64,000 bases of DNA from positions 64,001 to 128,000 of the forward strand of contig JBBHKE010000303.1 of the NCBI GenBank assembly GCA_037447655.1, read 5' to 3'. This DNA comes from Zygnema cylindricum. Its lineage: Eukaryota > Streptophyta > Zygnematophyceae > Zygnematales > Zygnemataceae. A program made the translations under genes and the position numbers. Position 1 is the stretch's first letter, and each line of letters opens with the position of its first letter. Below the pieces are notes generated by a model. That model was not told the DNA's origin. It saw only the letters and a list, made by a program, of their open reading frames with translations, and did no database searches. Shown here one piece after another: positions 15,322 to 50,502 of the stretch.

Positions 15322-15481
15322 CTCCCCTAAAGCTTTAGACTCAGTATCCTGGCGCAGCTGCGGTGATAAACTAGCGCAGCATCGCAGCATAACAATATAC
15401 CAATTAGCAAGTCACCCAGTCCCATTACCTCAAAATAGTGGAATTATCACTGAGTGACAGTATAGCAGTGCAGCAATTCAA

Positions 15482-19635: not shown

Positions 19636-20466
19636 GATACACTCTCAGAAGCTATCAAGAATCCTACCAAACAGCTGTTCTTAAGTGCTCACCAATTCTT
19701 ATACAAGCATCCAAACTTCACAAAACTCTATCAGAATATAGAGTAGCATAAACAATAATAATCTCCTAAAGTTTCAGCAGAATTGACCTGACAACACTCA
19801 AGATATAATACTCAGAAGTTTCCCAAAAATTGTTTGCAGTTTTATTACTTGGAAGTCTGGATACATAATATGTTATGAGTCCTAAGTCTTATACTTGTGT
19901 TGAACTGGCAACACCAGTGTACTTGAGAGGTATATCAAACCACCAAGCTACCACTAATCTGTCAAGCTACCATTGAGCTATCACTAAGCTACCACTGAGC
20001 TATCATTAAGCTACCACTGAGCTATCACTAAGCTACGTAGAATCGTATCTATCACAGTTGCTCTATCCTGTACAAAATCACATTAAGAATATCACATGCT
20101 GCGTTGTCCGTACCGACCATATCAAATATAATCGTGGTTGCGTTGTCCTGTCTGTGTTGCAGCTTCGCTGCTGCGCTGCTCTCCTGCTGCGTTGCAATAT
20201 AGCAGGTGCTTTGATGTATAGCAGCTGATCTGCTGTATAGCAACTACTCTGCTGTATAGCAGCTGCTCTGTTGTATAGCACCTGGTCTGTTGTATAGCAG
20301 CTGCTCTGCTGTATAGCAGCTGCTCTGGTGTATAACAGCTGCTCTGCTGTATAGCAACTGCTCTGCTGTATAGCAGCTGCGCTTTTCTGTTGTATAGCAG
20401 CTGCGCTGCTCTATATGTATAGCAGCTGCGCTGCTCTGAGACTGAAAGCTTTCCAAAAAGACAACA
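19577..20466 (-). repeat. 5' LTR of Y2
   Basis: 890 bp, with termini TGTTGT at 20466 and ACAACA at 19577 on the minus strand. It ends after codon 20 of gag; the next bases (19561-19576) are the primer-binding site, 'ggttatgggcctgtca' on the minus strand. The minisatellite (20180-20430) is long but its units are more diverged than in the 3' LTR. Confidence 0.85.
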
Positions 20467-20820: not shown

Positions 20821-21861
20821 TGTAACTCTGAGACCTCCATAAGTCCTCAGAGTGGACAGCTTCCAAGAAGCCTCTAGGATAATCCTGACCCCTTTGTGTT
20901 TAAGCAAAAATAACTGCCACCCTGGCAAACAAAAACCCTGACAACCTGCACCCTTGTGAAGGCAAGACTCCCCTGAGTCAGTAGCAAAAAGAATCTCTGA
21001 ATTTGCTCCCCTGAGCAGTAAGTTATGGAGGGTCAAAGTTGACCTTTTGTACAGAAGCTCTCTGGGAGAGAGGGTCCTATCTTCTAATTTTTCTAAGTCC
21101 TATCTCTCTCACAGACTCTATCTACTGATGTACGGAACCAATCAGAATTGAGTTCCGTACGCAAAAGTACAGCCGCCGGTGTACTTTCAGTACGGACATT
21201 GTACGACATGGCCTAAATGTCAACACATGTCAAATCCGGATTCGGTGCCATAATCTCCGGAGATTCTGCAATCCAATGGAATTTCGCCACGCGTCATCCG
21301 ATGTGGCGATGGCCACAAACCGCCGAAATCTTCCTCCGCGATCTCGGCGCTAATTCCGGCCGTCCGATTAAATTCAGATTTAATCGTAGCCGTAATAAAT
21401 ACATGCGCGGTATTTATTTCACTTCCGAAACAAATGCGCGGTATTGATTTGTAATCCGTACCGTCATCCGTACCGGATCTATGTATCCCGTAATCCGTAA
21501 CAGTTAAATGAATTTATCGTACGTATACATCTTTAAATTATTATCAAACTATATAGTACGTAACACTAATCCTAGACTTAACGGCTAAGGCTACCGGCTA
21601 CTTCCTATCTGCCGGCCGGTAGGTACAGTGATCAAATCCTGCCGCCGGCACATATCTTTTAGATAAATAAATAAACCCTAAAATAAAATTCCCGTAAACC
21701 TTAGGATAGCCATGGTAGCCATGGCTCTAGCTTCCTCTCCAATGTCTCAGTGACTGCGACAAGTTTGAGAGTTGGAGAGAGAAGTTAGAGGTAGACTGCC
21801 TCGGCTTCTTTCTATTTCTATTTAGACCTAGAAAATACTAATAAATCCATTAGTTTCTACA
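20821..21861 (-). mobile_element. Solo LTR, copia family X subtype b
   Basis: 1041 bp with termini TGTA..TACA, flanked by perfect AGGTA target duplications (20816-20820 and 21862-21866). On the minus strand it starts 'tgtagaaactaatgg' and ends 'ctcagagttaca'. It interrupts X1 between the gag zinc knuckle and pol. This copy defines the exact ends of subtype b. Confidence 0.9.
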
Positions 21862-28868: not shown

Positions 28869-29585
28869 TGTTGTCTTTTTGGAAAGCTTTCAGTCTCAAA
28901 GCAGCGCAGCTGCTTTACATATAGAGCAGCGCAGCTGCTACACAACAGAGCAGCGCAGCTGCTATACAGCAGAGCAGCTGCTATACAGCAGAGCAGCTGC
29001 TATACAGCAGAGCAGCGCAACAGCAGAGCAGCGTAGCAGCGAAGCTGCAACACAGACAGGAAAACGCAACGTCTGATATTCTTAATGTGATTCTGTACAG
29101 GATAGAGCAACTGCGACAGATACGAATCTAGTTAGCTTAGTGATAGCTCAGTGGTAGCTTAGTGATAGCTCAATGGTAGCTTGACAAATTAGTGGTAGCT
29201 TGGTGGTTTGATGTACGTCTCAAGTACATTGGTGTTGCTAGTTCAACACAAGTATAAGACTTAGGACTCATAACATATTATGTATCCAGACTTCCAAGTA
29301 GTAAAACTGCAGACAATTTTTGGGAAACTTCTGAGTAATATATCTTGAGTGTTGTCAGGTCAATTCTGCTGAAACTTTGGGAGTTATCAGTGTTTATGCT
29401 ACTCTATATTCTGATAGAGTTTTGTGAGGTTTGGATGCTTGTATAAGAATTGGTGAGCACTTAACAACAGTGGTTTGGTAGGATACTTGATAGCTTCTAA
29501 GAGTGTATCATGTCTACTTCTACTACTACTGCTGCTCCACTACTACTGCTGCTCCTCCACCTGCACCGGTGGTTGTAGAACAACA
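28869..29585 (+). repeat. 5' LTR of Y3
   Basis: 717 bp, TGTTGT..ACAACA; the minisatellite has about six 'gcagctgctatacagcaga' units (28900-29030). It contains the gag ATG at 29510, with a duplicated 'actactactgctgctcc' block (29520-29552) that changes the N-terminal Ser/Thr/Ala run. The primer-binding site 'gttatgggcctgac' follows at 29587. Confidence 0.85.
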
Positions 29586-32500
29586 AGTTATGGGCCTGAC
29601 ATCAAGAATTCCTATCTTTTCCGAGGATAAGTATGTTTACTTGGCGGATATGGTGGAAACACATTTTGAAAATGTCAATCTTTTGGATATATTGGATGGT
29701 TCGCTGGATGAATCTGATCCATCATGGTCTAAGAAAAATACGCAAGCTCGTTCTATTCTGAAATTTTGTATATCTGAGGACTTAGCTATGTCTCGGATAA
29801 AGATGAAAAAAACAATTGATATCTGGAAATCTCTTAAAAGTGATTATGAAAAGGCCAATGTCCAAGAAGAGCTTCTATTGGCTGGAAAAATTTGGGACTA
29901 TAAGTACACTGGCGGTACAATGGCTAAATATTCTAACAAATTTCGTATCCTTGTAGATGCACATGCTTGTGCAGGTGGGGTGTTTCCTCCTTTTCAATAG
30001 GCGGCATTGCTCATGAGGGGTCTCCCTCGTAGTATGAAAGGAGCATCTGACATGCTCAAACAAAAAAAAAAAAGCTAGCTGGACTTTACAGTTAGCCATC
30101 AATATTTTACTAGAGGAGGAAGCTACATCTAATATTCTCAATGCTGAGCAAGTAGAGGCTTTTAATTCAGACTTTGAGAGAAAAGGACAGTTTAATCAGC
30201 AAAAGAATCAGTTTAATCAGTTCAGACATTTTAATCAAAGTGGAAATAGACAATCCAACAATGCATGCTTTTATTGTAGTGAGAGAGGTCATGGATACAA
30301 ATTTTGTCCTAAGCTTAAAAAAGCTAACGATACAGGTTTATACCGGCCGGGATGGCAACAAAGCCAGTTTTACAAAGGCTTCACGGGGACTACACCTCGT
30401 GGAAATGCACTATTTTCAACTTCTTCGTCTCTCCAAGACGAGACTTTGACGGTTTCTACGGAGGACGATACGGATCTATTCGCTATGGCGGCTGGAATGA
30501 AGGGCGCCAAGGACCCCGGATGGATAATGGATAGAGGAGCGTCAGCCCACATGTGCTGGAACAAGACCATCTTCAAAAATTTGAAAGCAACGCCGGAGAA
30601 AAATATTTATTATGCTTGTGGAATGAGTGTCCAAACTCGTGCTGTGGGTGATGTATCCTTACTAGTTGATGTAGAAGGAAAAGCAATTGAAATGACTCTT
30701 CACAATGTCTTATTTGTGCCTGACTTTAAGAAAAATTTGTTTTTTACGTCGTTGGTAGAGAGCAAAGGCTTTCAGGTTAATTTGAAAAATGGTCGGTAGG
30801 TTGTTAGCAAAAATGGCAAGGTTGCGGTTACAGGTACTACAGATAGTAGCAAGATGTATCGCATGGATTAACCAATACAAAAGAGAATGATGTTTTGTAC
30901 TCTGGTGTTTTGCACTCAGATGAGTTGTGGCATAAAAGATTAGGCCATGTTAATTATGATAGTTTGAGGAAAATGGTCATTGCAAGAAAAAAAGAGGGTG
31001 TATCAATCACAGATGGGCCGGTCAAAACTTGCGATGGTTGCGCTTAAGGCAAAATCCACAGGTTGTCATTTCCTAAGGAGTCTGAGCATCGGTCAACGAA
31101 ACTTTTACAACAAATTCATTCGGATGTCTTTGGTCCGGCGAAGGTTCCATCTGCCGGAGGGATGAAATACTTGGTCACCTTCACAAATGATTTCTCCAGG
31201 TTTACAAAAGTTTACTTCATGAAGGAGAAGAGTGAAGTGTTTGGTCACTTCGAACACTATAAAGCATGGGCTGAAAAACTTCATAATTAATCTATTTTGC
31301 TGCTCAGATCGGACAATGGTGGTGAATATATATCGAAAGAATTTGAAACCTTTTTACTCGAGGAAGGCATTAGTCATCTATTGACTGTTCCATATTCACC
31401 GGAATAAAATGGGGTGTCGGAAAGACTGAATAGAACTCTCACGGAAAGCGCTAGGTCTATGCTCGCAGATAAAACTGTGATTCTAAAATTTTGGGTTGAG
31501 GCTCTAAATTGTGAAGTTTATATTAAAAATAGGATAGGATCAAGATCAGTAGAAACAACTCCTAACGAAATCTGGACAGGTAGCAAACCAGATGTTAGCC
31601 ATTCAAGGTCTTTGGTAGTCAATGCTTTATATTGGATACGTCTATAGATAGATGGAAAATGGAACCGAAGGGATTACCGGGTATTCTGTTAGGATATGAT
31701 GATCACTCAAAAGGTTATAGAGTCTTTGTGTTTGAAAGGCAGAAAATGGTTGTAGCTAGAAACATCATAAGGATGAACTAGACTCCATAGATTTATTTCA
31801 AATGACAGAGCAACAAAAGCAACAAAAAGTACAGGAGTATGTCATCTTAGATTGCATGCAGGAAATTGTCTCGCAGATTCCACAAACTCTGGTAATGACT
31901 CCGGAGTCAGACTCTCTCCAAGTTCCTCACCAACTTCGGGTCCACACGGACCAAGAGCAGTCAATACACACGGATTGCCCCCAGCGCAATCAGTGCAATC
32001 AGCACAATGCGCGGCATCCGATGATCTCAGCCTCAGAATTTCCGGAGGGAAGAAGATCAAGAAGCCGCCTACAAGCAAACTCTCACTTTGCCTACGCGGC
32101 AGTCTCAGGGGAGCCCTTGACCATCCAAGAGGCCTTCTCATCACCAGAGCGGAATCACTGGATTGAGGCGGCAAACGACGAAATGAAGTCGATCATGGAG
32201 GCTCAAACATGAGAGCTCGTGGGCCTTCCTCCAGACCGAAAAGCGATCGGCAGCATATGGGTATTCAAGGTGAAGTTAAATCCCGATAACACCATTGAAC
32301 GCTATAAGGCCAGACTTGTGGCGAAAGGGTACAATAAAAAGGAAGGAATCAATTTTGAAGAAACATTTTCTCCGGTTGTAAGATTTCCAACAGTTAGGAT
32401 TTTGCTGTCCCTAGCTGCTATAGAAGATATGGAAATTCATCAGATGGATGTAAAAATGGCCTTTTTGCATGGAGAACTAGAAGAGACCATTTACATGCAG

Positions 32501-33687
32501 CAGCCTGAAAAGTATGTGGAACCAGGAAAAGAGCACTTAGTATGCAAGTTGCTAAATCTTTGTACGGCCTAAAACACGACCCCAGACAATGGAATATAAA
32601 GCTTGATGAATTCTTGACTAGTCTAGGATTTCAAAAGATAAGTTCTAATCACTCTGTCTACGTTCTAAAGGGTGAAAATGGGATAGTGTATATAGCAGTA
32701 TATGTAGATGATATGCTATTAATTAGCAAATCAATGGCTGAAATTAACAAAATCAAAACTGCTCTAAACTCACGGTTCGAGATGAAAGACCTTGGTGAGG
32801 CAAAATATATTTTGGGTATCCAGGTAAAGAGGGCTAAAAATAGGAAAATAATAAAATTGACTCAAAAAGAGGCTATTGGAAACATGTTGGATGAGTACGG
32901 AATGCGGTGGGCAAAAGGATGTCTAACTCCAATGGAGTTTCGGCAAAAGTTAGAGGGAGAAGAGATAGAACCAGGTGTCATTGTTAGCGAGTATTTAGAG
33001 TCAGGGGAGAATGATCATATGACAATAATACCTTATAGAGAGATAGTGGGAAGCTTAATATATTTCATGAACTTTACCCGTCCTGACATTGCTGCAGCAG
33101 TCGAGGTACTGAGGAGGAGTCTAGAAAATCCGAGAAAATCTGATCTTGATGCAGCAAGGAGAGTCTTAAGATATTTCGCAGGAATCAAAGATCTCAAACT
33201 CACTCTAGGCGGAGGAGAAGTCAAGCTGCTAACATGGAGTGATGCAAACTATGGCCACATGCCAACCCGAAAATCCACCACGGGATTCGTTCTACAAATT
33301 GGGAACGGTACTTGCTGCTGAAGCAGCAAACTTCAAAAGGTTACACCACAGTCGACAATGGAGTCAGAATATATGGCAGCAAGCTCGGCCCTCAAAGAAC
33401 TCTTATGGGTAAAATCCATATTACAAGAACTATGATACATGCTACTTGATCCACAGGTAATCTGGTGTGATAACCAGGCTGCCATTACCATTGCTTCTAA
33501 CCCGAGTCATCACTTCAAAAGCAAACACATGGATGTACGATTACACTTTGTAAGAGAGAAGGTGTTCTCTAGAGTGATTAAATTATGTTATTTGCCAGAT
33601 GCAAAAATGATTGTTGATATGCTCACTAAAGCCCTTCCTGCTCCTAAGCTGAAGTATTGTAGGGACGCAGTGGGATTAAGTGAATAG
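29510..33687 (+). pseudogene. Y3 gag-pol polyprotein, Ty1/copia, broken
   Basis: Same domain order as Y2. Gag runs to a TAG at 29998; the CCHC knuckle 'CFYCSERGHGYKFC' is near 30265-30310. The protease reads 'WIMDRGASAHMC' (30530-30541 = D-R-G-A), so the catalytic D-T/S-G triad has lost its Thr. 'ELWHKRLGHVNYD' is near 30930; a TAA at about 31045 follows 'CDGCA', identical to Y2. Then integrase core 31063-31650; RT from 32219 with 'YKARLVAKGYN' and Y-V-D-D at 32701-32712; RNase H with 'LTWSDANYGHMP'; a TGA near 33434 identical to Y2; then 'WCDNQAAITIASNPSHH'; end at 33687. Additional frameshifts are near 30070, 31600 and 32560. Confidence 0.86.
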
Positions 33688-33847
33688 TTGAATTGCTGCA
33701 CTGCTATACTGTCACTCAGCGATAATTCCACTATTTTGAGGTAATGGGACTGGGTGACTTGCTAATTGCTATATTGTTATGCTGCGATGCTGCGCTAGTT
33801 TATCACCGCAGCTGCGCCAGGATACTGAGTCAAAAGCTTTAGGGGAG

Positions 33848-34520
33848 TGTTGTCTTTTTGGAAAGCTTTCAGTCTCAGAGCAGCGCAGCTGCTTTACAGA
33901 CAGAGCAGCGCAGCTGCTATACAACAGAGCAGCGCAGCTGCTATACAGCAGAGCAGCTGCTATACAGCAGAGCAGCGCAGCAGTAGAGCAGCGAAGCTGC
34001 AACACAGACAGGACAACGCAACGTCTGATATTCTTAATGTGATTTTGTATAGGATAGAGCAATTGCGATAGATACTATTCTAGTTAGCTTAATGATAGCT
34101 CAGTGGTAGCTTAGTGATAGCTCAATGGTAGCTTGACAGATTAGTGGTAGCTTGGTGGTTTGATGTACCTCTCAAGTACACTGGTGTTGCCAGTTCAACA
34201 CAAGCATAAGACTTAGGACTCATAACATATTATGTATCCAGACTTCCAAGTAGTAAAACTGCTGACAGTTTTTGGGAAACTTTTAAGTAATATATCTTGA
34301 GTGTTGTCAAGTCAATTTTGCTGAAACTTTGGGAGTTATCAGTGTTTATGCTACTCTATATTCTGATAGAGTTTTGTGAGGTTTGGATGCTTATATAAGA
34401 ATTGGTGAGCACTTAACAACAGTTGTTTGGTAGGATACTTGATAGCTTCTGAGAGTGTATCATGTCTACTTCTACTACTACTGCTCCTCCTCCACCTGCA
34501 CCGGTGGTAATAGAACAACA
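33848..34520 (+). repeat. 3' LTR of Y3
   Basis: 673 bp, the shortest Y LTR; it has only four or so minisatellite units (33885-33985). It ends 'aatagaacaaca' and is followed at once by gypsy integrase sequence in the opposite orientation. Confidence 0.82.
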
Positions 34521-36095
34521 GTTTTTAGGAGCGAATTTCCTCGTAAGATCTAATTTTCCCTCGATCTTGCACCTGTAATGAGTTGTTGAAAGCCAAACTT
34601 TGTCACCTTTACTTACCACCCAATCACTTCGTTTAGGGTTAGAATTTTATTCTTTTCTTCTTTGTGCCTCCACTAATGCATCCCTAACTGTTTTCCAAAT
34701 CTTTTGAATGCATTCACAAAACTTCGTTCCAAAACCCCTACTCTCTTGAGTGACCCATGTTATTAAGTCTAATGCTTCTCTCGGTTGATATTCGTATGCA
34801 ACTTCAAACGGTGAGAATCTTGTACAAGCATGTCTACATGAATTGTATGCAAATTCCATTAATGGTAGTTTACATTCCCACTTGTTTTGAACTCCACTCC
34901 AAACAGTCCTTAGCATTTTTTCCAGTGTACGGTTCATCTTTTGTGTTTGTCCATCTGTTTGAGGATGATAAGAGGTACTCATTGTTAATTCAGTGCCTAA
35001 ATTTTGCTGCAATTCTTTCCAAAATGCAGACGTAAATCTAGTATCCCTATCACTGACTATAGAGAGTCGAGCCCCATGATATCTGACCACGTTGTCAAAA
35101 TATAACTTTGCAATAACTACAAGTGGATGAGTAGTTTTGCAAAGGATAAACATTGGCATTTTACTGAACCTATCTACTACGACCATGATAATGTCATTTC
35201 TTTTAGATGTGGTTGGCAACAAGATAATAAAATCCCTACTGACACATTTCCATGGTCTTTTGATGATATCTAAAGGTTTTAAGAGAACTGTAGGTTTCTG
35301 GTTACTAAGTTTAATCTGCTGACAAGGGACACAACATTCCACGTGTTTCGACACCTCATTTGCCATCCCGGGCCAAAACAATCTACTCTTCAACCGACTA
35401 AGAGTTTTATCTCGACTTAGATGTCCTGAATGCTCATAAGCTTCCCGTAAAAGTTGTTTTTTTAAGTCTCCTACTTCAAGAATGCATAATCTCTCATCTG
35501 TTTGCAAATTCAGTAAACAATATTCTATTCTAAAGTTTTTAACATGCCTCACATTCAATGTGTCAAAATTCCTTCACAAAATAATCTTACAAATCACAGC
35601 AAAATAAAATTCTTTATCATAACCATTTCTAACAGCATCTAAAACCAATTCATCCCGAAACATCACACTTATTTCAAAACATCTACTTAAAGGGCTTGCG
35701 AGTACATTGGTCTTTCCAGGAATATGTTTGACATTAAATTTAAAATGTGACAATATCTGCATCCACCTAACCTGTCTGTCAATCATAATATGTGCATCAC
35801 TTAATCTTTGTAGATAGGAGAGTGCCAAATTATCACATTGAACTGTAAATTTTTTATTATGCAAATAACAAAGCCATTTCACCAATGCATGAACTATTGC
35901 AAGTAATCCCTTTTCCAGTGCCAGATAGTTTTTTTCAACATCATTGAATTTCTTGGACTAAAAAGCAATAGGATGAAAATGTTTGCCGAATTTTTGATTA
36001 TTCAATGCACCTAGACCTTTATCACATGCATCTGTAGTGATCCAAATTTCAAACTCCCCAATAGGATCAAGATACACCAGTGTAGGGGCAAAGGT
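34521..36095 (-). pseudogene. Ty3/gypsy relic G2: RNase H and integrase
   Basis: Minus strand, entering within RNase H near 36095 ('FEIWITTDACDKGLGALN', 'FNDVEKNYLALEKGLLAIV') and continuing 'KHIPGKTNVLASPLSR' (35574-35885). After a stop and frame change comes an integrase (34647-35558): zinc site H..H..C-x2-C ('YEHSGHLSRDKT', 'CVPCQQIK'), catalytic D in 'VSRDFIILLP', D in 'IVSDRDTRF', E in the region after 'SYHPQTDGQ' (here Q-K-M-N; the usual T-E is changed, so the Glu is lost). A GPY/F-like C-terminus 'GDKVWLSTTHYRCKI' lies near 34610-34570. RT, protease, gag and LTRs are missing. It differs clearly from G1. Confidence 0.82.
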
Positions 36096-36145
36096 CTGCT
36101 GTTTTGAAAGCTTTAGTCCTCACTAAGCTTCATAGGTGAGGGGAG
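36096..36145 (+). other. Internal tail and polypurine tract of copia W
   Basis: 'ttgaaagctttagtcctc' and 'ataggtgaggggag' parallel the sequence just before the Y 3' LTRs ('aaagctttaggggag'). It therefore marks the end of a W internal region before the LTR that starts at 36146. Confidence 0.45.
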
Positions 36146-36977
36146 TGTTTTCTCATTACTTAGAATATTTTGTGAAAGTCTAATTCAGTATGTACCAGAA
36201 TTAATGTTACAGTGAACAGTGAGGGAGTTCACGGTGTGACACACTTCAAGACACGCGTCGGTAAATGAGACACTCTACAATGATCCGTTCGCACTATTCA
36301 GATTTACCATAAAGACCGAAGTGTCACATAAAAGTTTCATCTTGGATGAAATTTCGAAATGAAAGACGGTGAAGATTTGCTGCCGACGAAAGGTGGTCAT
36401 CCGGGACCACGTCTGTAATTATCTGACGTGTTTGTACACGGTGTACTGTGACGTTACTTATCTCCAGTTTGTACAGAAGCTTGTTTTGTTTGATTAGTGT
36501 CTCATTTCAGATTCATTCTATATGACATACCTTGACACATTCAGGTATCCTCTTTTAGATAGTAGATATTATTGATGCATGGCTGGTATGCCTCCTTTGT
36601 TTAGTTAGGGCAGTATGTTGCTACTAGCTCTTGGAAGAATGGATCTTTTAGGTATAAGAATAGGACTTAGCCATTTCAGAATTAGGAACTTGTTGTATCA
36701 AAATTATACTGTGACATTTTTGATATCCTCTAACTGAGAATATATCTCAGATCTATTTGCAGATTTCTGTGTAAATTTGCGCTTGTGTTCCTTTGTATAT
36801 TATTTGCATTGTGTCAGATTTGTAGGCCATTTGGTTGCCTAAATTATCTTTGGTTGTGTTCCAAAGTTGTATGTATTTTTTTGAGCATCTGTGAGAGCTT
36901 CTTGCTTATCTTAATTCTGTGATGACTACTCGAGCATCATCTTCATCTTCAGTTGGTGTGGTAGTCACAAAACAACA
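36146..36977 (+). repeat. LTR of copia W
   Basis: 832 bp, TGTTTTCTC..AAAACAACA. A polypurine tract lies before it and a primer-binding-like site after it (36978-36992, 'ggtcacaggcccacc', a diverged form of the X1 site), so internal sequence occurs on both sides. As in family Y, the gag start (ATG at 36922, Ser-rich 'RASSSSSVGVVV') lies inside the LTR. Confidence 0.65.
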
Positions 36978-37003
36978 GGTCACAGGCCCACCCTCACGGA
37001 TCC

Positions 37004-37013
37004 NNNNNNNNNN
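37004..37013. other. Assembly gap, 10 N
   Basis: Ten N bases. Real missing length is unknown; a fixed 10-N filler is likely. It falls inside the gag of copia W. Confidence 0.98.
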
Positions 37014-37149
37014 CCGGCCTCAACGACTACATCAATAATTCAAACCTTCTCGAGGCCATAGGTGGTGACGTAGAACCATGTGCGGCATAGGTAATTCAAA
37101 TTTTAAAGGGCAGGACAAACAACAAGATGTTGGTGGCAGTTGGTCAGCG
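37014..37149 (+). pseudogene. Copia W gag fragment
   Basis: Reads 'GLNDYINNSNLLEAIGGDVE', then a stop, then 'VIQILKGRTNNKM'. The position relative to the primer site and the gag-like pattern suit the N-terminal region of a copia gag. It is truncated by an X LTR fragment on the right and the N gap on the left. Confidence 0.45.
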
Positions 37150-37264
37150 TTTTTGTCTGCCAGGGTGGCAGTTATCTTTGCTTAAACACAAAGGGGTCAG
37201 GATTATCCTAGAGGCTTCTTGGAAGCTGTCCACTCTGAGGACTTATGGAGGTCTCAGAGTTACA
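37150..37264 (+). repeat. Terminal 115 bp of an X subtype b LTR
   Basis: Reverse complement of 20821-20930, nearly identical, ending exactly at the LTR 3' terminus 'ctcagagttaca' (37264). Confidence 0.75.
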
Positions 37265-37380
37265 GTGAGCGCTTAAGAACAGCTGTTTGGTAGGATTCTT
37301 GATAGCTTCTGAGAGTGTATCATGTCTACTTCTACTACTATTGCTGCTCCTCCACCTGCACCGGTGGTTGTAGAACAACA
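37265..37380 (+). repeat. Terminal 116 bp of a Y LTR
   Basis: Starts 'gtgagcgcttaagaacag', carries the gag ATG at 37321, and ends exactly at the LTR terminus 'gtagaacaaca' (37380). G1 protease sequence follows without spacer. Confidence 0.8.
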
Positions 37381-37879
37381 AACAGGACGGGAAATTTTAA
37401 ACTTAATGGATACGGCGTGTACCAAGATGCAGTGGTGGATACCGGAGCTCTTCCAAACTTAATAACTACATCAGCAACTCCGGCCAAAAATTAGTCCAAG
37501 TGACATATGCTTAAGCACAGTCAGCAGTGGCAGCCAACCAGTATATGGGATCATAAAAGCCATGGAAATCGAATTTGCTGACGACGCAGGCCAGCATGTG
37601 CAGATTCGGCTTCCCTTCCTAGTGGTTGAAGGTAAGCAATTTGAAATTTTGTTGGGTATGGCTACGTGGACAAGGTTGAACATGGAGTTGAGCGTATGGA
37701 AGGAACAAGTTACAGTCTCAGACCTTGAGGATCCGGAAGGCACAAAAGTGGTGGTCCCCTTAGATTTGTGGAACCGGGGAAAAACGACTGTTCCGGTGTC
37801 TGGATGCTATCCCGTCTACTCTGCCTCAACCCCCTCGGAGCTGTTCAAATACTCTAACGATATCGCTGATTCTATCTAG
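37381..37879 (+). pseudogene. G1 aspartic protease
   Basis: 'DAVVDTGALPNLI' (37426-37464) carries the catalytic D-T-G-A of retropepsins. After a one-base slip in an A5 run (37486-37490) the frame continues to 'FLVVEGKQFEILLGMATW' (about 37615-37670), the conserved hydrophobic-I-L-L-G-x-x region, and ends at a TAG (37877-37879). The whole would be a typical retropepsin-like domain of about 150 residues. When functional it would process the polyprotein. Gag upstream is absent; a Y LTR end abuts it. Confidence 0.72.
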
Positions 37880-39107
37880 CAATTCCCTATTTCTTAGCGG
37901 TGGGAAAGGGAGTATCAGAACCGATTGCTACAGATGGCCACACTTCGGCGGGAGGTGGGAAGTGGACAGGAGCTTGGCTGCAATATCACCCAAAGCAGCA
38001 AAAGTCCCCCGGTCGGAACTTCCAATGGTTCCTAACAAAGGGAAAGACTTTAATCGACAAATGGTGTCACTACAAATCCCGCTTTCAGGACTTAGGATCC
38101 TATCCCTATTTTCTGGCATTAGTTCCGATCTGGAAGCTGTCCTGAAAGCTGGATACCAAGTACAAACTTACTCGGCAGTCGAGATTGACCCCGACGCCCG
38201 TGCAGTCAGTGAGTACCTCCTGCAACAGCTGCACCAACTTTACCCACAGCAACTCCCGATGTCCGCCATGTCTAACTCTCATTGCACGCTTCCCCAAAAT
38301 GTGGATAATATCACGGATTCCCATTTGGAAAAGCTCGGAAGGGTAGACTTAGTGGTCGCTGGATGGCCATGCCAGGGATATTCGTTAGCAGGACAGGGCC
38401 GAGGACACCAGGACGTCCGTAGCAGAACTTTCTTTCAAATGACCAGACTAATAACAGGGTTACAGGAACGCCAGGACACACCAGTGGGGTACGTCTTGGA
38501 GAACGTTCACCCCACAGATGATAAGAGATAACAGGTAGTCAACAGCTGGAACCAAGTGACCAAGGTTCTAGGGACTCCCATAGTTTTTGATGCAGCTCAG
38601 ATCAGATCGAGAGCCCACAAAGTTCGGGCATATTGGACCAACTTGGTTCCTCTTCCAATCCTCCAACAGCTGTTGAGAACACAGGTTCCAGATCCCAACA
38701 TCACGGTCCAACAGATCCTCGGACCGGGGAGAATGGCCACACCGGCGATCACAGCCGACAAAGCACCCTTCATTTGTTGTAATAAGCCTGGATATCCACG
38801 GAGGGCCCTACCAACTCTGGTATCTTTTCCTATCAGCCACGCTTACCGAAAGGGCGCACCAGGAATGATCTTTGACAGTACAACCGCCACGTGGACAGCG
38901 CCGAATATTACAGAACGGGAACTAGCAATGGGGTTTCAACAGGGAATCACAGCTGCGCCAGGGGTATCGGCCTTAAAAAGGTGCAGATTAATCGGACAGA
39001 GCATGGATTTAAATGCAATTTCCTGGGTGCTGAAACATTCTCTGGCTTTCTCAAGCCTTCAGTCTCCAGAATCACGGACAACATACCTTCAAGCTCCACA
39101 GTTGTGA
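37878..39107 (+). pseudogene. Cytosine-5 DNA methyltransferase domain, DNMT3-like, inside G1
   Basis: One frame, open from 37878, with a single premature TAA (38529-38531) and a terminal TGA (39105-39107). Motifs in canonical order: I 'LRILSLFSGISSDLEAVL' (SAM binding, 38090-38143); II 'AVEIDPDA'; IV 'VVAGWPCQGYSLAGQ' with the catalytic Cys codon at 38370-38372; VI 'GYVLENV' with Glu at 38499-38501; VIII 'IRSRAHKVRAYWTNL' (38598-38642); X 'RLIGQSMDLNAISWVL' (38985-39032). The unpermuted order excludes DRM-type enzymes; 'RAHKVRAYWTNL' recalls the 'AHRARYFWGNL' of DNMT3. No BAH, chromodomain or ADD is seen. It lies between protease and RT in the same strand and frame as the RT, so it belongs to the retroelement. 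Expected role: methylating cytosines, perhaps of the element's own DNA. Dead in this copy. Confidence 0.9.
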
Positions 39108-39110
39108 GCC

Positions 39111-40948
39111 ATGCAAGCAACTCTAAAGCTTGAGGGGGGGAGAGAGACAAGGAGGGAAAAATTCACATTCACCACTTCCTCAGTGGGGGGGAGAAATGGC
39201 ACACTGGACCCAGGAGTTTCTTTAGTGGGGGGGAACGGAGTCTCTGAACAGGACAGCTTAGAGGAAATTGTTAGCAGCAGCGTGTTAACAGCCGAACAAG
39301 GGACAGACCCACAGGTAGAGCTGACCTTCGACATCTCTCTCTTGGGTAGACCACCGGAAGCATTGGCGGCAGTGGAACCCGGGAAGATGGACTGGACTCT
39401 AGGTGAACAGCGAGACCCACAGCAGAAAGCCTGGCTCTCCAAGCTGTTAGAAGAGAACTGGCAGGTGTTCGCCTGGTGTGACACCGATGTAGGGATCTAT
39501 AAAGGGACTCCTTTTCGGATTGACCTGATCGACGAGACGGCTACTGTTTGGCAGAAACACTACCCTCTCAGTTTCAAGGAGAAGGAGTTCATCACTTCAA
39601 AGGTGTAGACTTTGGTGGAAGTTGGGCTGGTTCAGGAGAGTACAAGACTACATGGGTTTGCCTCACCAACCGTGCTCCCGCTAAAGAAAGACTCCTCCAA
39701 AAAAATTGTAGATTTCCGGATGTGTGGGGACTATCGGATGCTCAACGCGGCGACTGTCTCCGACCGTTATCCTATGTCTACCTCGGAAGAGATCTTCGAC
39801 TCTCTTACTACGGCCACCATTTACTCCATTTTGGGTATGAAAAATGGATTCCACAAGATTGCAATGGAGCCGAAACACCGAGAGAGGACTACTTTTTGGG
39901 CCGTATCCAGGCTATATGAATGGCTGTACATGCCATTTGGCCTCAAGAATGCACCTCCCAAATTCCAACGGGCCATGGACGAGGCTCTCCGGGGAATTGA
40001 TTTCGCACGGTGTTATATCGACGATGTTGTCATTTTCTCCAAGACATTCGAAGAACACTTGGAGCACATACAGATCGTTCTCCGGGCACTCCAAGCAGTG
40101 CGCTTGAAGTGTCACCCGAGGAACGGCATCTTTGGGGTGCAGAAAATTATTTATCTGGGTCATGAGGTGACCCCCGGGACAGTGGGTCCCCACATGGTTA
40201 AGGTGGCAGCCGTAGACGCTCTTCCACCCCGCATGACATTTCTGCTCTTCGTACTTTCCTGGGCCTTGCCAACTATTACCAGCGGTTTATTCTTGAATTT
40301 AGTAGCCACGCTCAGCCATTGAATCAATTGTTGCGAAAAGACCAGGAGTGGCAGTGGAAGGAAGTACAGCAGATAGCGTTCCAATTCCTGAAGAATTCCC
40401 TCAAACAGCATCCTGTGCTCCGGATGCCCGATCACCAGCGGCCTTTTCTCCTTTATACAGATTGGAGCACGTTTGGATTCGGAGCAATTTTGGCTCAATT
40501 GGACGACGCAGGGGCTGAGTATGTAGTTGCCTACGCAAGCCGGAGTAATAACAGAGCCGAAGGGAATTACAACAGTTACCTTGGGGAATTACTCGTCGCG
40601 GTTTGGGCCATCTAGCACTTCCGGCCTTACCTCTATGGAGTACACTTCACCCTTATTACGGATCACTAGCCCCTCAAATGGATCATGGAGAACAGTAAGT
40701 TGACTGGAAAGCTGGCCAGATGGGTTTTCATTTTACAGGAATATGAGTTCAGCATCATCCATAGAGCCGGGGTGATTCATGGGAATGCCGACGGACTCAG
40801 CAGGAATATGGACCCTTCCACCAGAGACTCTACAGGCGCGCGACATGACGAGGACCCTGAGCTCAGCCTGGGACTTATCCGAGCTTCCTCTGCTTTTATT
40901 TGCTGCCTCGAGCCGAAGGAGAACTGTCAACTTTTGCTGCAGATGTAG
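39111..40948 (+). pseudogene. G1 reverse transcriptase and RNase H
   Basis: The frame continues from the methyltransferase after TGA-A. A linker of about 110 residues leads to 'GTPFRIDLIDE' (39507-39539), the usual pre-RT element. After a TAG (39606-39608) come 'RMCGDYRMLNAAT' and 'LYMPFGLKNAPPKFQRAMD', Y-I-D-D at 40014-40025, and 'IIYLGHEVTPGTV'. A frameshift near 40225 gives 'FLGLANYYQRFI', then RNase H: 'FLLYTDWSTFGFGAIL' (D), 'NYNSYLGELLVAVWAI' (E), 'GVIHGNADGLSR'. TAG stops at 40613 and 40666 replace codons that are Gln in relatives ('H-Q-P-L' type). This makes cDNA and degrades template RNA in intact elements; non-functional here. Confidence 0.85.
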
Positions 40949-42165
40949 AGGGGCATGCCCCCATTGGAGCCAGCCGGAACGATATATGGAATGAGAGCGA
41001 TTCCCTCCAATCTATCCAGAAGGGCTCTCCTCTATCCCACCTTGCGGGAAGTCAATTGTCCCGTGTTCAGAACCGAATGGCGGCTTATGAATGGGACCGA
41101 GGCATCCTTCTTCGAAAATGGGCCGATGGGACGAGGAAAGTGGTTCCTCCTCCGGCAGATCAGGAAACGCTCATTGTTCGGCTTCACCAGCAATGCGGGC
41201 ACTTCGAACAGAAACGAACCACCTCGCTAGTCACAGGGTCGTATTGGTTGCATGGGTTGCGGGCCTAGGTCAATCGTGTGGTGCAGACGTGCCCTTCCTT
41301 TGACCGGGTAAAAGCAGTTTTTGACAAAAAGGGTGGGACTGAGCTTCACTCCCTCCCCATCCGGGGGATGTTTTACAGATGGTCACTGGATCTGCTAGGA
41401 CCACTTCCCATTAGCCAGAGGGGGGACCATTTTGTTCTGGTCATGATTGAACACTTCTCTAAGTGGATTGAATTGGTGGTTCTTCCCCGTAAAGAGTCCA
41501 AAGCAATCGCAGACGCATTCTTGCAGAGATTGTTCTCTCAATTTGGAGCCCCAGCCGAAGTTCTGACGGATCAGGGGTCTGAGTTTGCCGGAGAATTTTC
41601 TAACCTTCTGGAGAAGTGCCTCATTGACCACAGGTTAACCAGCCGAGACCACCCCCAAGCCGACGGCTTGGCCGAGAGGTGCGTACAGATAGTGAAGCGG
41701 TCACTACGGAAATATGCGGTTGAAGAGGATTTGGGGGAGTGGGACACACGGGTGCCTTGGATTGCCATGGGGTACAGGTTCAGCAGGCAAGCATCTCTCC
41801 ACTCCTATAGCCCTTACTTCATTCTCTTCGGCCGACATCCCATCCTACCAGGGGCTGCGTCGGCTCAAGCGATTGTTCTTCCGGAGATGGACCACCAGGG
41901 TACTGTAGAGAAACTGATTGCCGACCGGGCTAAGGTATTTCAGCGGGAAATACCTCTGGCCATGGGCAATTTACAAGTTGCTCAGCATAGAGATCAACTC
42001 TGGTATTCCCAACGAAGGAGCGGCAATTATGTCCCCCGGCAACGTCGATTTGTGCCCGAGGATTTTGTGTATCGCATGCAACAAAAGAAGGATACTTTGG
42101 ACATTTCGGCCGGACGAGTGATTCTGAAAGTTGTTGAGGTCTCAAACAAAGGGGATCTTACCTAG
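40949..42165 (+). pseudogene. G1 integrase
   Basis: Reading switches to another frame (open from about 40900). Zinc-binding region 'LHQQCGHFEQKRT' supplies the two His; the Cys pair is 'QTCPSFDRVKA', where the second Cys is replaced. The core has D in 'WSLDLLGPLP' (41381-41410), D in 'VLTDQGSEFAGEF' (41560-41598) and E in 'DHPQADGLAERCVQ' (41650-41691). A TAG at 41266 splits zinc domain and core. The C-terminal part runs to 'GDLT' and a TAG at 42163-42165, after which the frame stays open into the PHD finger. It would insert cDNA into the genome when intact. Confidence 0.82.
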
Positions 42166-42441
42166 GAAGGGAAGGATGGCCGCAAAATTAAAGAAAATCA
42201 GATCAATGTGGCCCCTTGCCATCTGCGAGGGTTAGAGGATGAACCCACTTTCCACCTCACTTACTTTGCAAACCCTCCAGCCTGTTCCTCTGCCTGCCAT
42301 GTGTCCTTCGTACCCAACCTCCTGTTGGTGTGTGAACGCTGTCACCAGGGGTGGCATGACTGCTGCCTACCTCTGAATTGGGAGCCCCTCTCTTAACCCG
42401 CAAATCCGTGGTTCTGTGGGGAATGCGAGTTTGGCGGCTAA
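42166..42441 (+). pseudogene. PHD-type zinc finger at the C-terminus of the G1 integrase
   Basis: In the same frame as integrase, after its TAG: 'CSSACH', 11 residues, 'LLVCERCHQGWHDCCLPL', 'NWEPLS', a TAA (42394-42396), then 'NPWFCGECEFGG' and a stop at 42439-42441. The spacing C-x3-C..C-x2-C-x4-H-x2-C..W-F-C-x2-C is the C4HC3 signature of a PHD finger, including the Trp two residues before the last Cys pair. PHD fingers usually read histone H3 tails. Many gypsy elements have a chromodomain at this place, so targeting of integration is the natural inference. Confidence 0.78.
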
Positions 42442-42485
42442 TCTGTCTAATCCTCTTAGTCACGTGGGACTAAGATGGGGGGGGA

Positions 42486-42690
42486 AATCTGGGGGGGTAC
42501 AGGGTACTTTTCTTTTCCACTCCATTCCTCCTTACTATCTATGCATATCCCTAGAGGGGGGGTAATGGGTAGAGATGGGCATTGTCACGGATCCGGGGAA
42601 GCATCAGCATTTGGGGTGGATTGCAGGTTTCTCATGCACACCTCCTTGGACATCTTACCTGAACCTCCCGGTTCCCAGGCACGCTCGACA
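42486..42690 (+). repeat. 205-bp direct repeat, copy 1, downstream of G1
   Basis: From 'aatctgggggggtacagg' to 'aggcacgctcgaca'. About 95 percent identical by eye to 43880-44087. It starts just after G-rich polypurine-like runs, as an LTR would. Confidence 0.75.
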
Positions 42691-43879
42691 GTTGTCAAGC
42701 TCGTGTGCATCTTCGGCACATTTGCACTCGTAGGAGTTCCGGGGCCTCATTCCACTTTGTACGGACTCTAGCGTTCAGAAAAGGAAGAGGAAAACTAGCC
42801 GGATCAGGTCTTTATATTTTCACTCTGGAGCCCTACGCAATTTAGTTCACCTTAAACGGAGGCCGAACGGCGGAGTTAGTCCGTTGCAAAGTGTCTGCTC
42901 CATTATATTGTGTGTTCTATGTAGCTCTAGTAGAGGGATACATTAGAGAACGACACGTAACATTTGGGATTATCCCGTAGATCCTACTGTTAGCTGTCAG
43001 TAGGATGTTAGTTTAGGCCCTACATCCGGGCAAAGCATTAATGAGTTTGGGTCAAAGTTAGGCGGTTTTACGTCGAGTCAGAACTTTGTTTCCATTTTGT
43101 GTATTATAGGAGGACCCTCGGCCGCTAATCCAGCCGGAACCAGTCGTCTAACTTTTAGCCCTGAGTGTAGTACAGTCTGTTTTGTTTTATGTCAGGACGA
43201 TAACAATTGCTGGCCGCTGATTGGCCTGTCACATTGTTTTGACTTTGGAACTTGCAGTAGGACAAACTCTGGTTGTATAAGGCACTTGGGGCCGAAGGAG
43301 ACAAGTTGCTTTTTCAGTACTGTCTCTTGAGAAAACCTCAAAGAATTAAATCAATCTTTCTGTTTGAGAACGGTTGCATTGTGTCGTTGACTCTATTGCC
43401 ATCTTTGTTTTGGATTGTCTTTTGTGGAGACCGTAGCACGGGTGGGTAGTTGGCACTATCTCCTCTTTGGGCGGTTTGGACTTTCGCTGTTTGAAACTAA
43501 GTAGAGTCTTGTCGGATCCTTGCCGTGGAACCGAGAGGGGTGAGGGAGACTCATACCTGTCATCGGGGCCATTGGGAGAGGTTTTCTTCTACTGAGTTTG
43601 GTCATCGTTGCAATCCGGGGTATGAGAATTCGCTTCACCATTATCATTTATTTCTATCTTTAATTCCATTCTCTGGGGCAAGGTGATATTGTTTAATCTG
43701 AAAAGCCGATATTTGTTATTTTTATATTTCTGCGTGGGAGTTATTTGCACACTCTTGTGGTCATCTTTGGGTTTGTCCGGAGTTTTTGCGGAAAGGATCG
43801 GACGACTCTCATTTCCTCCCTGTTCTTTGGAGAGTAGCTGGGAGTGTGGCATTTAGTGGGCTTCCAGCGGAGTAGCACG
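42691..43879 (+). other. Spacer between the two 205-bp repeats, putative LTR of G1
   Basis: No coding sequence is recognised. A TATATTTT box lies near 42813 in 'gtctttatattttcactc'. The segment could be the body of a long G1 LTR, or the inside of a small non-autonomous element bounded by the repeats. Confidence 0.4.
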
Positions 43880-44087
43880 AATCTAAGGGGGTACAGGGTA
43901 CTTTTCTTTTCCACTCCATTCCTCCTTACTATCTATGCATATCCCTGGGGGGGGGGGGTAAATGGACAGAGATGGGCATTGTCACGGATCCAGGGAAGCA
44001 TCAGCATTTGGGGTGGATTCCAGGTTTCTCATGCACACCTCCTTGGACATCTTACCTGAACCTCCCGGTTCCCAGGCACGCTCGACA
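43880..44087 (+). repeat. 205-bp direct repeat, copy 2
   Basis: Matches 42486-42690 with a few substitutions and a longer G run (43948-43959). It is followed immediately by copia V RT sequence, so its right edge is an insertion breakpoint. The long open frame that appears to fuse it with the RT is fortuitous. Confidence 0.75.
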
Positions 44088-46777: not shown

Positions 46778-48060
46778 ATGTCCAAAAAAGGGAAGCAGAA
46801 TGCATCTCATAATAATATCATTAACACAAACGAGTCATTAATCAATCTTTCATCTTATACTTCAACCTCTTCCATGCATACCTTGCAAATGCCATCTACA
46901 ATACATCCGTTAACAAATCCTTTTTCTATTAATCATGTATTCTCTTACACCCCACCCTCTTCAATGCACACCCCGCAAATGCCACCTACATTATATCCGT
47001 TAACACATCCTCTCTCTTCTAATCCTATATTCTCTTACACCTCATCCTGTTCTATGCATACTGCGCAAATGCCACCAACAATTTCTCCACTAACTACTCC
47101 TCTCTCCGCAAATCCTGTAGTAGCCACCACAAATCTACTGTAAAAACCCGTAATGACCCCACCAAGACGTAAAAAAAACACGGAAACCCCCTCAACTAAA
47201 GGCGAAAAGTGGGAATTTGACGAGGTAGAGGTGTTGTGCCAGGCCAAAAAACAAGAGTTTCTTCAAAACCCAGAGATTAGTGCAAAGGCTAAATTCGGAA
47301 GCAAGGCTGAAAAATGGGGGGATCTCGCCAAAAATATGGAAAAGTGTGGGGTTCATCGACTTTGGCCTGAGTGCGAACGCAAATGGAATAATGTAATGAG
47401 TGAGTATAAAAAAATCAGAGATCATAACGAGAGAAGTGGTGTTGCCACCTATTTTACAATGGGAAAAAAAGAAAGGAAGACACATGGTTTGCCACCGTCA
47501 TTTCCTAAAGCAATTTTTGATGAATTAGAATTATGGTTGCCAATGCGAGACGCTATCAACCCCAAGGTTACGTGGGATACCGGGGATGACCCCCCAAAGG
47601 TGGATGAAGATTTAGACGATGACGAAGATACAGTTATTCTTCAGGAAAATCCAAAAAAAAAAAAAGTAACGTTGGTGGTGAAACTACGAGTGCAAACTTC
47701 GCGGAAGTACATGGATTTGACAAAAATGTATGTGACAAAAGGGAGAAGAAGAAGAGAGAGGATGAAGGAGATGATGAGAAGGGCACGGGATTTCATTCGC
47801 CTTGTAATGGGGATAAGTTCGCCTCCACTCGGAAACGAAAGCGAGTCGTGCGCAAAGGTAATCAAGAAAATTCGTCACATGCGGTAAAAGAAGTCGAAGA
47901 AATGTTGGATAACTCGGGCAAAAAACAGTTTGAGAGACAAAAAGAGATTGTGAGCATGCATAAAGAACTCCTGGGCTCCGTGGAGAATGTTCTTAAGGGG
48001 GTCATCGAGGAAATGAAGACGACAATCGCAACAAATGTAAAAAATATTTTCAATAGTTAA
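46778..48060 (+). CDS. SANT/Myb-like protein (ORF1) of a PIF/Harbinger transposon, with one stop and one homopolymer frameshift
   Basis: Main part 47153-48060. An N-terminal Arg/Lys patch is followed by a trihelix/SANT domain: 'KWEFDEVEVLCQAKKQEF' (47210-47263), 'GVHRLWPECERKWNNVMSE' and 'YKKIRDHNERSG' with Trp spaced as in Myb-like folds. A conserved 'LPPSFPKAIFDELELWLP' stretch and an acidic segment follow. A slip in an A13 run (47653-47665) changes frame; the next frame has the basic 'TRKRKRVVRKG' and a helical C-terminus to 48060. Upstream in the same frame (46778-47143, closed by TAA) lie three repeats of 'SMHT.QMP.T..PLT.P'. Such proteins are known to bind Harbinger DNA together with the transposase. 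The A13 change may be a sequencing error. Confidence 0.72.
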
Positions 48061-49175: not shown

Positions 49176-50502
49176 CTAATCGTCGATGTCCATTTCGTGG
49201 CCATTGTGGTCGTTGTCGTCAGTCAACATATCTACATCCCCTTCTCCATCCGCATGAGGAACATAAACGCCGGTATCGTTATGTTCACTCGCCCCACCCC
49301 TCATGACAAAATCACGTAAAATGTCTCTTACTCCAACACCCCGGAGTTTATGGGAGCGAGAAGCAGTTGGTCGTCTTTCCACATCTCCACTTGCTCGTGC
49401 TAGTCGTTCTCGAGCTCCAGACAAGCGAGAGGCCCTTTCTTCAATGCCAGTTACACTCTTTGCTTGTTCTTTCGCAAACTCCAACTCCCAATCGATATCC
49501 ACCTCGTTCCTCGCAATGGAAATGTTGTGTAATACACAAGCAGCGATGATGAAAGTCAACATCGTTTCTATCCGTGGATGGTAAATTTTTTGGAGATACC
49601 TCCATTGCCCTTTTAGCTTCCCAAAAGCCCTCTCAACAACCATCCTCAACCCCGAATGTTGAAAATTAAATTTTATCTCAGCTGCAGTAAGTCTCGCACC
49701 GGGGTACGGCACTACAAGGTTCAGGTGTAGTGCGTACCCCGCATCTCCAACGAGGTACGGAAAAACATTATTGTTTTCCCATTGGAAAACATTCCCACTT
49801 GATTCCATACGCCTTTGAAAATCTTGACCCAATTTTGATCTACGAAAAATCCGTGAATCGTGGATTGATCCGGGAGATCCTACATTGAGATCAATAAATC
49901 TCATTTTGTGGTCTACAACTGCTTGTACTACTGTGGAGTAATTGTGCTTAGCGTCAAAATAATCGATCGGTAACATATTTTTTCCAAGTGTCATTTGTAT
50001 GTGAGTACAATCGATAGCCCCTACACAATTGGGTAACCCTTTGTCTTTTTCGAAGAAATCTTTCGTCTCTTTGAGTTCGTCTTCAGTTGGCCACCTTACC
50101 CAAGTGACGTAGTTTTTTCACTATTGCCAGCACTACTTTACGAGAAATTGTACTAACAGTCGAACGTCCAATCCCAAATTCCTCTGAAGTACGTATCAGA
50201 CCTCCTTGGTGTCCTAACCTCATTAAGGCTATTAGAACCTGTTTTTCTGCGCTCAATTCTCTATTTGGGATGTTTTGGAGTCTTGAGGGAGGGTTAGTTT
50301 TGAGGTCACTCTCTAATTCTTTCACCAAAAACTCCACTGTATCTTTTTTCAATCGAAACATTTTTCGAAAACGCTCGTCACTATAACGTCCTAATTCTAC
50401 ATCGGCCCAATGTAATGACCTTGGCTCGATGTAGTAAACCCCATTTGTATCAGATTGGAAGCTTGAGAAATGTCGGAGGGTTATTTTTGCAATTTCGGGC
50501 AT
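49176..50502 (-). CDS. PIF/Harbinger transposase (DDE_Tnp_4, ALP1-like), one frameshift
   Basis: The N-terminal part (50083-50502) has 'YSDERFRKMFRLKKDTVEFL' and a helix-turn-helix-like 'GGLIRTSEEFGIGRSTVSTI'. An A6 run (50113-50118) breaks the frame; the continuing frame reads 'YVTWVRWPTEDELKET' and 'GAIDCTHIQM' with the first catalytic Asp. The C-terminal part (49176-49994) has 'PGSIHDSRIFRRS', the second Asp in 'YLVGDAGYAL' and the Glu in 'RMVVERAFGKLKGQW', completing D-D-E, then 'ACVLHNISI'. Total about 440 residues, usual for the family. The C-terminal tail is acidic, ending 'NGHEMDIDD'. It converges with the SANT-like gene. Upstream codons are readable to about 50560 but contain a TAG, so the true start is uncertain. 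Confidence 0.88.

Follow-up and report, generated by a model that had tools for sequence, protein, structure and literature searches.

A Ty3/gypsy-type retrotransposon copy with its own DNMT3-type cytosine methyltransferase in Zygnema cylindricum

The element and its methyltransferase domain

The stretch of Zygnema cylindricum DNA analysed here (the window; 64,000 nucleotides, contig JBBHKE010000303.1, positions 64,001 to 128,000) contains a broken retrotransposon copy that encodes a DNMT3-type cytosine C5-methyltransferase (DNMT) among its Pol domains. The element spans 37381-44087 and consists, in order, of protease, a TAG stop, DNMT, reverse transcriptase (RT), RNase H, integrase, PHD finger and the repeats B1-A2-B2, all on the + strand. 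RT, RNase H and an rve integrase are all present, as expected of Ty3/gypsy Pol, and the element is almost certainly a Ty3/gypsy retrotransposon copy with its own DNMT3-type enzyme, resembling KnitGypsy-Dnmt3 of Klebsormidium nitens. A first-pass annotation of the same DNA had proposed a DNMT3-like domain at 37878..39107, between retropepsin and RT and in the RT frame. That placement was confirmed by a PF00145 match and by the metagenomic protein P0006, which carries DNMT and RT in one chain and is collinear with the window over 38043-40049 (51% identity). The proposed extent agrees with the DNMT piece (37962-39107) and not with the much longer element, and position 37878 falls inside the TAG (37877-37879) by which the protease frame is closed; the domain proper lies at approximately 38091-39032.

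For domain reading, 36000-42500 was translated in three frames of the + strand, and relatives were drawn from 5.8 billion proteins at E <= 0.001 (4 and 14 proteins, one in common, giving 17). The left limit at 37381 is the start of similarity to the genome copies L032/L034. Copia-type repeat pieces border the element at 37136..37380, of which 37265-37380 is found again beside copia copies and 37136-37264 matches 20821-20949 (self-BLAST of the window), and an assembly gap, written as 10 N, lies just upstream at 37004-37013. A frameshifted retropepsin remnant (DTGA ... ILLG) at 37381..37771 was recognised by tblastn with the relative P0007 (1e-10) in frames 1 and 2, which differ from the DNMT-RT frame; by Pfam it is weak (RVP E = 0.038, 14.7 bits against a cut-off of 20.7, at 37387-37491), and the other protease piece (37562-37876) gave no Pfam match. 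The alignment of copies places a TAG, followed by CAATTC, at the protease/DNMT border (37877..37879). The DNMT (37962..39107) is followed in the same frame by a linker and gypsy RT (39108..40226; RVT_1 2.8e-22), the RT having 73% identity to P0006 over 146 residues, and then, in a shifted frame, by RNase H (40229..40858; RT_RNaseH_2 4.1e-25, tblastn). The integrase (40933..42165) combines an H2C2 zinc finger (24.3 bits, under the cut-off of 25.5) with an rve (DDE) core (1.7e-13, tblastn). Behind it lies a PHD finger with one internal stop (42166..42453), which scored 20.9 bits with PF00628, under the cut-off of 24, compared to 24.1 bits in L034 and 44.6 bits in L033.

The 3' part begins with a G run that is a likely polypurine tract (42477..42484). 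Repeat B1 (42486..42690), ending in GCTCGACA, has 94% identity to 43880-44087. After the dinucleotide GT follows repeat A2 (42693..43879), which starts with TGTCAAGC and is 92% identical to the 5' repeat A1 of the copies C544 (L038) and C1374 (L040). Repeat B2 (43880..44087) forms the right end of the element, closing with GACA before AGGG. A copia RT frame starts directly behind it, at 44088. The window copy is dead: the shared DNMT-RT frame is interrupted by three stops (TAA 38532-38534, TGA 39105-39107, TAG 39609-39611), there are frameshifts, and gag and the 5' repeat A1 are gone. The frame shared with RT that had been claimed at first is one frame, but a broken one, with the protease in others.

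The first DNMT piece (37962-38531) matched PF00145 with E = 1.2e-11 (45.1 bits, cut-off 22), the profile search having been proposed with the original claim. The second piece (38535-39104) had no Pfam match by itself; it resembles motif VIII and the C-terminal end of DNMT3A weakly (E = 0.016) and aligns clearly with the 17 family proteins. Motifs I (LFSGIS), IV (VAGWPCQ), VI (LENV), VIII (AHKVR) and X (GQSMD) were read in canonical order, as first described, with motif II seen just as an alignable VEID stretch. A DRM identity, with its rearranged order of VI-X followed by I-V, was dropped because of this canonical order. Ranking of PDB sequences against the first piece put DNMT3A highest (38.7 bits), followed by DNMT3C, DNMT3B and M.HhaI, with DRM2 and DNMT2 lower. 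A profile of five family members scored DNMT3A at 89 bits, DRM2 at 48, M.HhaI at 41-42 and DNMT2 at 29-30, making DNMT3 the closest, and no DNMT1 chain was among its 58 matches. P0006, the closest intact relative, stood in for the broken copy in the fold work. Its predicted structure had a mean predicted local distance difference test (pLDDT) score of 66 over 685 residues, with a confident DNMT part (ten-residue means mostly >=90 over residues 41-360), and the best 50 of 1,239 Foldseek matches (E <= 10) were all DNMT3 entries. By sequence, profile and fold, the kind of METHYLTRANSFERASE is DNMT3-type, as had been suggested from the letters of the window.

The region of motif IV is specific to the family, with VAGWPCQ or VAGWECQ in place of GGSPCN, and the stretch ahead of it is longer than that of DNMT3A. 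Of the 18 family rows (window and 17 relatives), 17 retain the catalytic Cys, and P0010 has Tyr instead. CpG depletion was uninformative, at 0.64 for the element, 0.75 for the rest of the window and 0.43-1.15 for the other transposable elements of the window.

Copies in the Zygnema genome, their repeats and their border stop

The host assembly searched comprised 352.8 Mb in 2,689 contigs. PF00145 scored in at least 123 places among 782 candidates, host methyltransferases included, and the integrase in at least 133 places among 6,282 candidates. GRAS genes are also present (27 matches), as expected of a zygnematophyte alga or land plant; the LEAFY SAM domain had no match, either in this genome or in the control genomes, and is uninformative. 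The best 30 of the 123 scored PF00145 places were examined over 3.2-3.5 kb each, a selection biased towards conserved copies. The family DNMT was present in 29 (L008 lacked it) and protease, DNMT and RT matches occurred in that order in 22, counting L019, where a deletion puts the integrase beside the DNMT. Over 5.35 kb from protease through PHD finger to B1, the window element has 92.5% DNA identity to C544 and 93.4% to C1374. The flanks of these two insertions differ, and their mutual similarity ends at the element ends. The window's subfamily keeps the frame from DNMT to PHD finger open for 1,525 and 1,520 codons (L032/L034). At C1344, a single N-free frame of 2,395 codons contains protease, DNMT, RT, RNase H, integrase and PHD finger (tblastn); by Pfam, the DNMT, RT, integrase and PHD pieces score above their cut-offs, and the zinc knuckle and protease under theirs. 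A 5,743-codon open frame around the integrase at C961 was discarded as an artefact of an N run. Linked copies, for which the first-pass annotation had proposed a search of this genome, are thus present, and neither of the outcomes it had named as telling against it (no linked copies; a host gene with gypsy inserts) appeared.

The DNMT is under purifying selection in the stop-free genome copies. At least 85% of the domain was stop-free in 16 of 32 sequences (window, 30 loci and L035). These gave 120 pairs, 87 of them saturated and 5 too close, and Ka/Ks was 0.106-0.407 in all 28 usable pairs. Catalytic Cys and motif VI Glu were both kept in 16 of 16 stop-free copies. The median Ka/Ks of RT was 0.143, an indicative value since its set held three locus pairs that were single places.

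Several copies have split repeats of the form A-coding-B-A-B. C1344 has A1 at 85514-86444, the coding region, B1 at 94737-94980, A2 at 94981-95911 and B2 at 95912-96154, with A1 and A2 identical over 931 bp. Its outer ends are TGTC and GACA, TTGG flanks it on both sides (a 4-bp target duplication), and B1 and A2 meet at GACA-GC-TGTC. C1915 has the same layout, with A copies that agree at 99.5% over 1,475 bp and CCCT on either flank, so that ends of the form TG..CA with 4-bp target duplications are found in both. C449 has the layout in part: A pieces at either end and two of B, the agreement between the A copies being 93-95% or 75% depending on the region. Six loci have the junction GACA-NN-TGTC; its two middle letters are GT in the window and GC in the other five. 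The B/A junction loci are the window (42485-44087), L033, L035, L041, L042 and L046. C1344, C1407 and C1915 likewise have a G run ahead of B1, and from this position of the G run reverse transcription should finish with repeats of the B-A form. The inserted A-coding-B-A-B form is a circular permutation of the B-A form, cut at the B/A palindrome, from which we infer a route through circular cDNA. On balance, the DDE integrase probably opens circular cDNA at the B/A junction. Integration from circular cDNA is otherwise associated with tyrosine-recombinase elements. Membership of the DIRS/tyrosine-recombinase elements was rejected given the rve integrase and the 4-bp duplications, which flank C1344 and C1915 but neither C544 nor C1374.

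The border stop could be aligned in 16 of 32 sequences, and was TAG in 15 and TAA in L018. It is followed by CAATTC in 14 of the 16, with TAATTC in L010 and GAAATC in L018. In C1374, 279 open codons of protease frame lead up to the TAG, and this frame is in phase with that of the DNMT. The border stop is lacking in subfamily b (L033). From its conservation and context, the TAG of the window's subfamily is possibly a readthrough stop, TAG-CAATTC being a context that we take to be like the plant-virus readthrough signal UAG-CAA-UUA.

Relatives in other organisms and other features of the window

The named relatives come from Closterium sp. Naga37s-1 (P0004), Klebsormidium nitens (P0015, KFL_009030040) and Haematococcus lacustris (P0018), and P0016 is Cz02g39130.t1 in jgi/Chrzof1, a code that we take to stand for Chromochloris zofingiensis. 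Pfam was run on 14 of the 17. The DNMT lies ahead of RT in P0006, P0007, P0010, P0011 and P0015 (order I), and between RNase H and integrase in P0013 and P0016 (order II, RT-RNase H-DNMT-integrase-PHD), with P0012, P0014 and P0017 having it immediately ahead of the integrase. By Pfam, P0008 and P0018 have a protease and no RT, and P0004 and P0009 the DNMT alone; the DNMT of P0018 was missed by Pfam and found by blast. Among the order-I chains a Pfam protease was seen in P0007 and P0011 only, under the cut-off in both, and P0007 has the order protease, DNMT, RT. No Pfam protease was found in P0015, where a protease-like upstream stretch is visible by eye alone. Comparison of the placement with published elements, which the annotation had called for, thus finds the DNMT ahead of RT in K. 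nitens, the window's own order in P0007, and a position between RNase H and integrase in a sister clade. A PHD finger stands behind the integrase in P0012, P0013, P0016 and P0017, four of the five order-II chains with an integrase; it is absent from P0014, whose chain stops soon after the integrase core, and from the partial P0015.

The order-II proteins together with P0003, P0005 and P0018 form one clade in the DNMT tree of 19 rows (100/99), the latter three being assigned to the group by this tree alone. The five order-II rows of the integrase tree (8 rows) likewise split off (99/98) from the window and K. nitens, and the window groups with P0006, P0007 and P0011 in the RT tree of 7 rows (92/95). 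P0015 is the row nearest to the window in the integrase tree, but not in the DNMT or RT tree. DNMT identity rises with RT/integrase identity (Spearman 0.68 in each of two sets of 15 non-independent pairs). Judged from these sequences, the relationships fit one capture, inherited by descent, and one change of DNMT position. The DNMT trees had a single outgroup row, a long-branched DNMT3A assembled from printed pieces, so that the root and the direction of the domain move are insecure and family monophyly is beyond their reach.

Beyond the PHD finger, P0012 (residues ~1000-1224) and P0017 (~1200-1462) have a by-eye likeness to a degenerate Rossmann methyltransferase (DPWAGN, APP or YPP). P0016 has a G-patch motif between DNMT and integrase (residues 737-780; PF01585, 23.6 bits, cut-off 22), and P0017 shows something similar on inspection by eye. 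A viral or prokaryotic source of the DNMT found no support in pattern scans, which were narrow. The IMG/VR scan with one peptide pattern returned 26 stretches with one relative, L001, an ordinary phage-type C5-methylase amid phage-like open reading frames (31% over residues 40-183), and as a narrow scan leaves a viral source possible; the similarly narrow scan of GTDB genomes returned 4 matches and no relative.

Elsewhere in the window, a decayed gypsy element on the - strand (34647-36045) has an H2C2 integrase and RNase H, with no DNMT in the part seen. Two inverted copia copies (15154-20310 and 28900-34007) are 91% identical over 5.2 kb. A PIF/Harbinger-type transposase (DDE_Tnp_4; 49176-49994, -) and a Myb/SANT open reading frame (47153-47887, +) perhaps form one element; none of 115 candidates was a relative of the Myb/SANT frame at E <= 0.001. 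The frame at 57165-58091 (+) gave no Pfam match, and its end presumably resembles symplekin, a likeness noted by eye.

Proposed mechanism, alternatives and significance

The best explanation of the locus, to which we assign a probability of roughly 0.6, combines a dead KnitGypsy-Dnmt3-like copy with steps of readthrough, circular integration, cDNA methylation and PHD targeting. Ribosomes would pass the TAG in the window's subfamily and make the DNMT-RT-RNase H-integrase-PHD part in smaller amounts than the protease part. Reverse transcription would yield B-A terminal repeats and the cDNA would circularise, after which the integrase would cut the palindrome GACA-NN-TGTC at the B/A border to leave A-coding-B-A-B. 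Packaged with RT, the DNMT would methylate the element's own cDNA at CG sites, and new copies would thereby carry the mark on arrival; this methylation of own cDNA is suggested tentatively, at somewhat under even odds. The PHD finger would steer the integration complex to nucleosomes of a given H3 tail state.

Several observations weigh against this explanation. The protease frame of C544 has a further stop and is open for just 59 codons, and C1374 lacks a single open frame that would join gag to protease. The Ka/Ks values come from best-scoring copies, mostly of one subfamily, in dependent pairs; restricting them to stop-free copies biases the values downwards, and pairs that are nearly identical could represent two alleles of a single insertion. 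The DNMT also diverges faster than RT (50% vs 73% identity to P0006). Both ends with a target duplication were seen in just two of the eight copies whose ends were examined besides the window. C1407 shows B-A-B with no 5' A in the stretches examined, C82 and C2577 showed no such repeat in the ends examined, and C544 (L032/L038) and C1374 (L034/L040) have A1 and B1 only, the stretches examined showing neither an A2-B2 that belongs to them nor a target duplication, a state that could stem from one-repeat circles or from later deletion. Lastly, the K. nitens DNMT gave no methylation in a yeast assay that its authors call inconclusive (PMC5890265).

A host DNMT3 gene hit by gypsy insertions, with the association in the window accidental, might be imagined from a broken copy that lies amid nested copia and gypsy pieces. 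We rejected this origin, which we regard as extremely improbable, on the repeated protease-DNMT-RT order in 22 of the 30 best loci and the 92-93% identity over 5.35 kb to two other insertions whose mutual similarity ends at the element limits. DNMT together with RT or integrase in single polypeptides of other organisms, and the joint rise of DNMT and RT/integrase identities, also speak against it, and a single segmental duplication as the cause is disfavoured by the existence of subfamilies and by C544 and C1374, whose flanks are not alike. The start of the DNMT-Pol frame at its own ATG, by internal initiation or from a separate transcript, has a fair amount in its favour without being the likelier course, as the frame that opens behind the stop in L032 and L034 has an ATG 18 codons from its start, and L033 has no border stop at all. 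Retention of TAG and CAATTC in L013, L028 and L029, which are just 80% identical across the border, and the frame of L034, which stays in register across the stop, argue instead for readthrough.

The function of the enzyme may also be read differently. The DNMT could methylate and silence the element's own copies, keeping it quiet and tolerated and lowering the cost to the host, as opposed to protecting or disguising cDNA. KnitGypsy-Dnmt3 copies indeed bear CHH and CHG methylation and are listed among silent elements, and slower transposition is one option raised by the authors (PMC5890265), but the high copy number in Zygnema and the recent movement implied by the identical repeats of C1344 make this unlikely in our view. 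Still less probable is that the domain has lost its activity on cytosine in DNA and acts as a methylase on RNA of the element or on a protein partner, or just binds nucleic acid. The yeast result from K. nitens, the changes in motif IV with the longer stretch ahead of it and the Tyr of P0010 would agree with such a loss, whereas the catalytic Cys and Glu kept in the remaining rows, the purifying selection and the DNMT3 fold favour a retained DNA methyltransferase.

Among known systems, the closest is KnitGypsy-Dnmt3, described as a DNMT3 within the Pol open reading frame of a long terminal repeat (LTR) gypsy element, with DIRS-like repeats alongside gypsy domains, a DNMT Ka/Ks <0.2 and acquisition inferred within the K. 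nitens lineage (de Mendoza et al. 2018, PMC5890265). P0015 appears to be its protein, matched by organism and domains, and is 42% identical to the window in the DNMT and 50% in the integrase. Shared features are a Ty3/gypsy Pol with rve integrase, an unrearranged DNMT3 ahead of RT in the Pol frame, DIRS-like repeats, matched by A-coding-B-A-B in Zygnema, and a DNMT under purifying selection. The Zygnema element differs in its PHD finger (the P0015 chain being partial), its host lineage and its many copies, and the window's subfamily in the TAG ahead of the DNMT. Order-II relatives have the same DNMT family and integrase type, but carry the DNMT after RNase H or directly ahead of the integrase. 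SymbioDIRS-Dnmt3 of dinoflagellates also has A-coding-B-A-B repeats and a DNMT3 inside a retroelement Pol; it has a tyrosine recombinase and no DDE integrase, is reported as an independent acquisition, and its DNMT methylates CG in yeast (PMC5890265). Animal DNMT3A/3B have the same fold and catalytic motifs, with ~19-23% identity in fold alignments, and lack the fusion to a retroelement Pol. Streptophyte and dinoflagellate elements of the LTR Copia and DIRS types have further been described as carrying DNMT3 (PMC12344493), and a 2019 opinion places methylase-bearing retrotransposons in green algae and charophytes, among others, and not in land plants (PMC6338049).

Chlorophyte relatives, the second domain order, the PHD finger, the conserved TAG and the TG..CA ends with duplications go beyond the published features of KnitGypsy-Dnmt3 available for comparison and widen the kind. 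The accessible portions of PMC5890265 contain no mention that we found of a PHD finger, readthrough, chlorophyte copies, a second domain order or TG..CA ends with 4-bp duplications, and full-text searches, whose scope left aside supplements and most subscription papers, gave no paper on such features among the matches listed.

It is conceivable, though we hold it more as a proposal than as an expectation, that these elements make up a gypsy family spread across the green lineage, with a DNMT3 writer and a PHD reader in one Pol, a DNMT that moved once and DDE integration from circular cDNA. If so, the acquisition would predate the split of chlorophytes and streptophytes or would have spread horizontally, as opposed to being private to the Klebsormidium lineage. 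A further streptophyte lineage with many copies, together with chlorophyte relatives, would turn an isolated oddity into a family, and a family allows the question of what a parasite gains from writing the silencing mark of its host. Old and young copies of several subfamilies in one genome would let methylation by age and DNMT presence be read from long-read data, and the way in which these elements integrate can be tested through their split repeats, TG..CA ends and target duplications.

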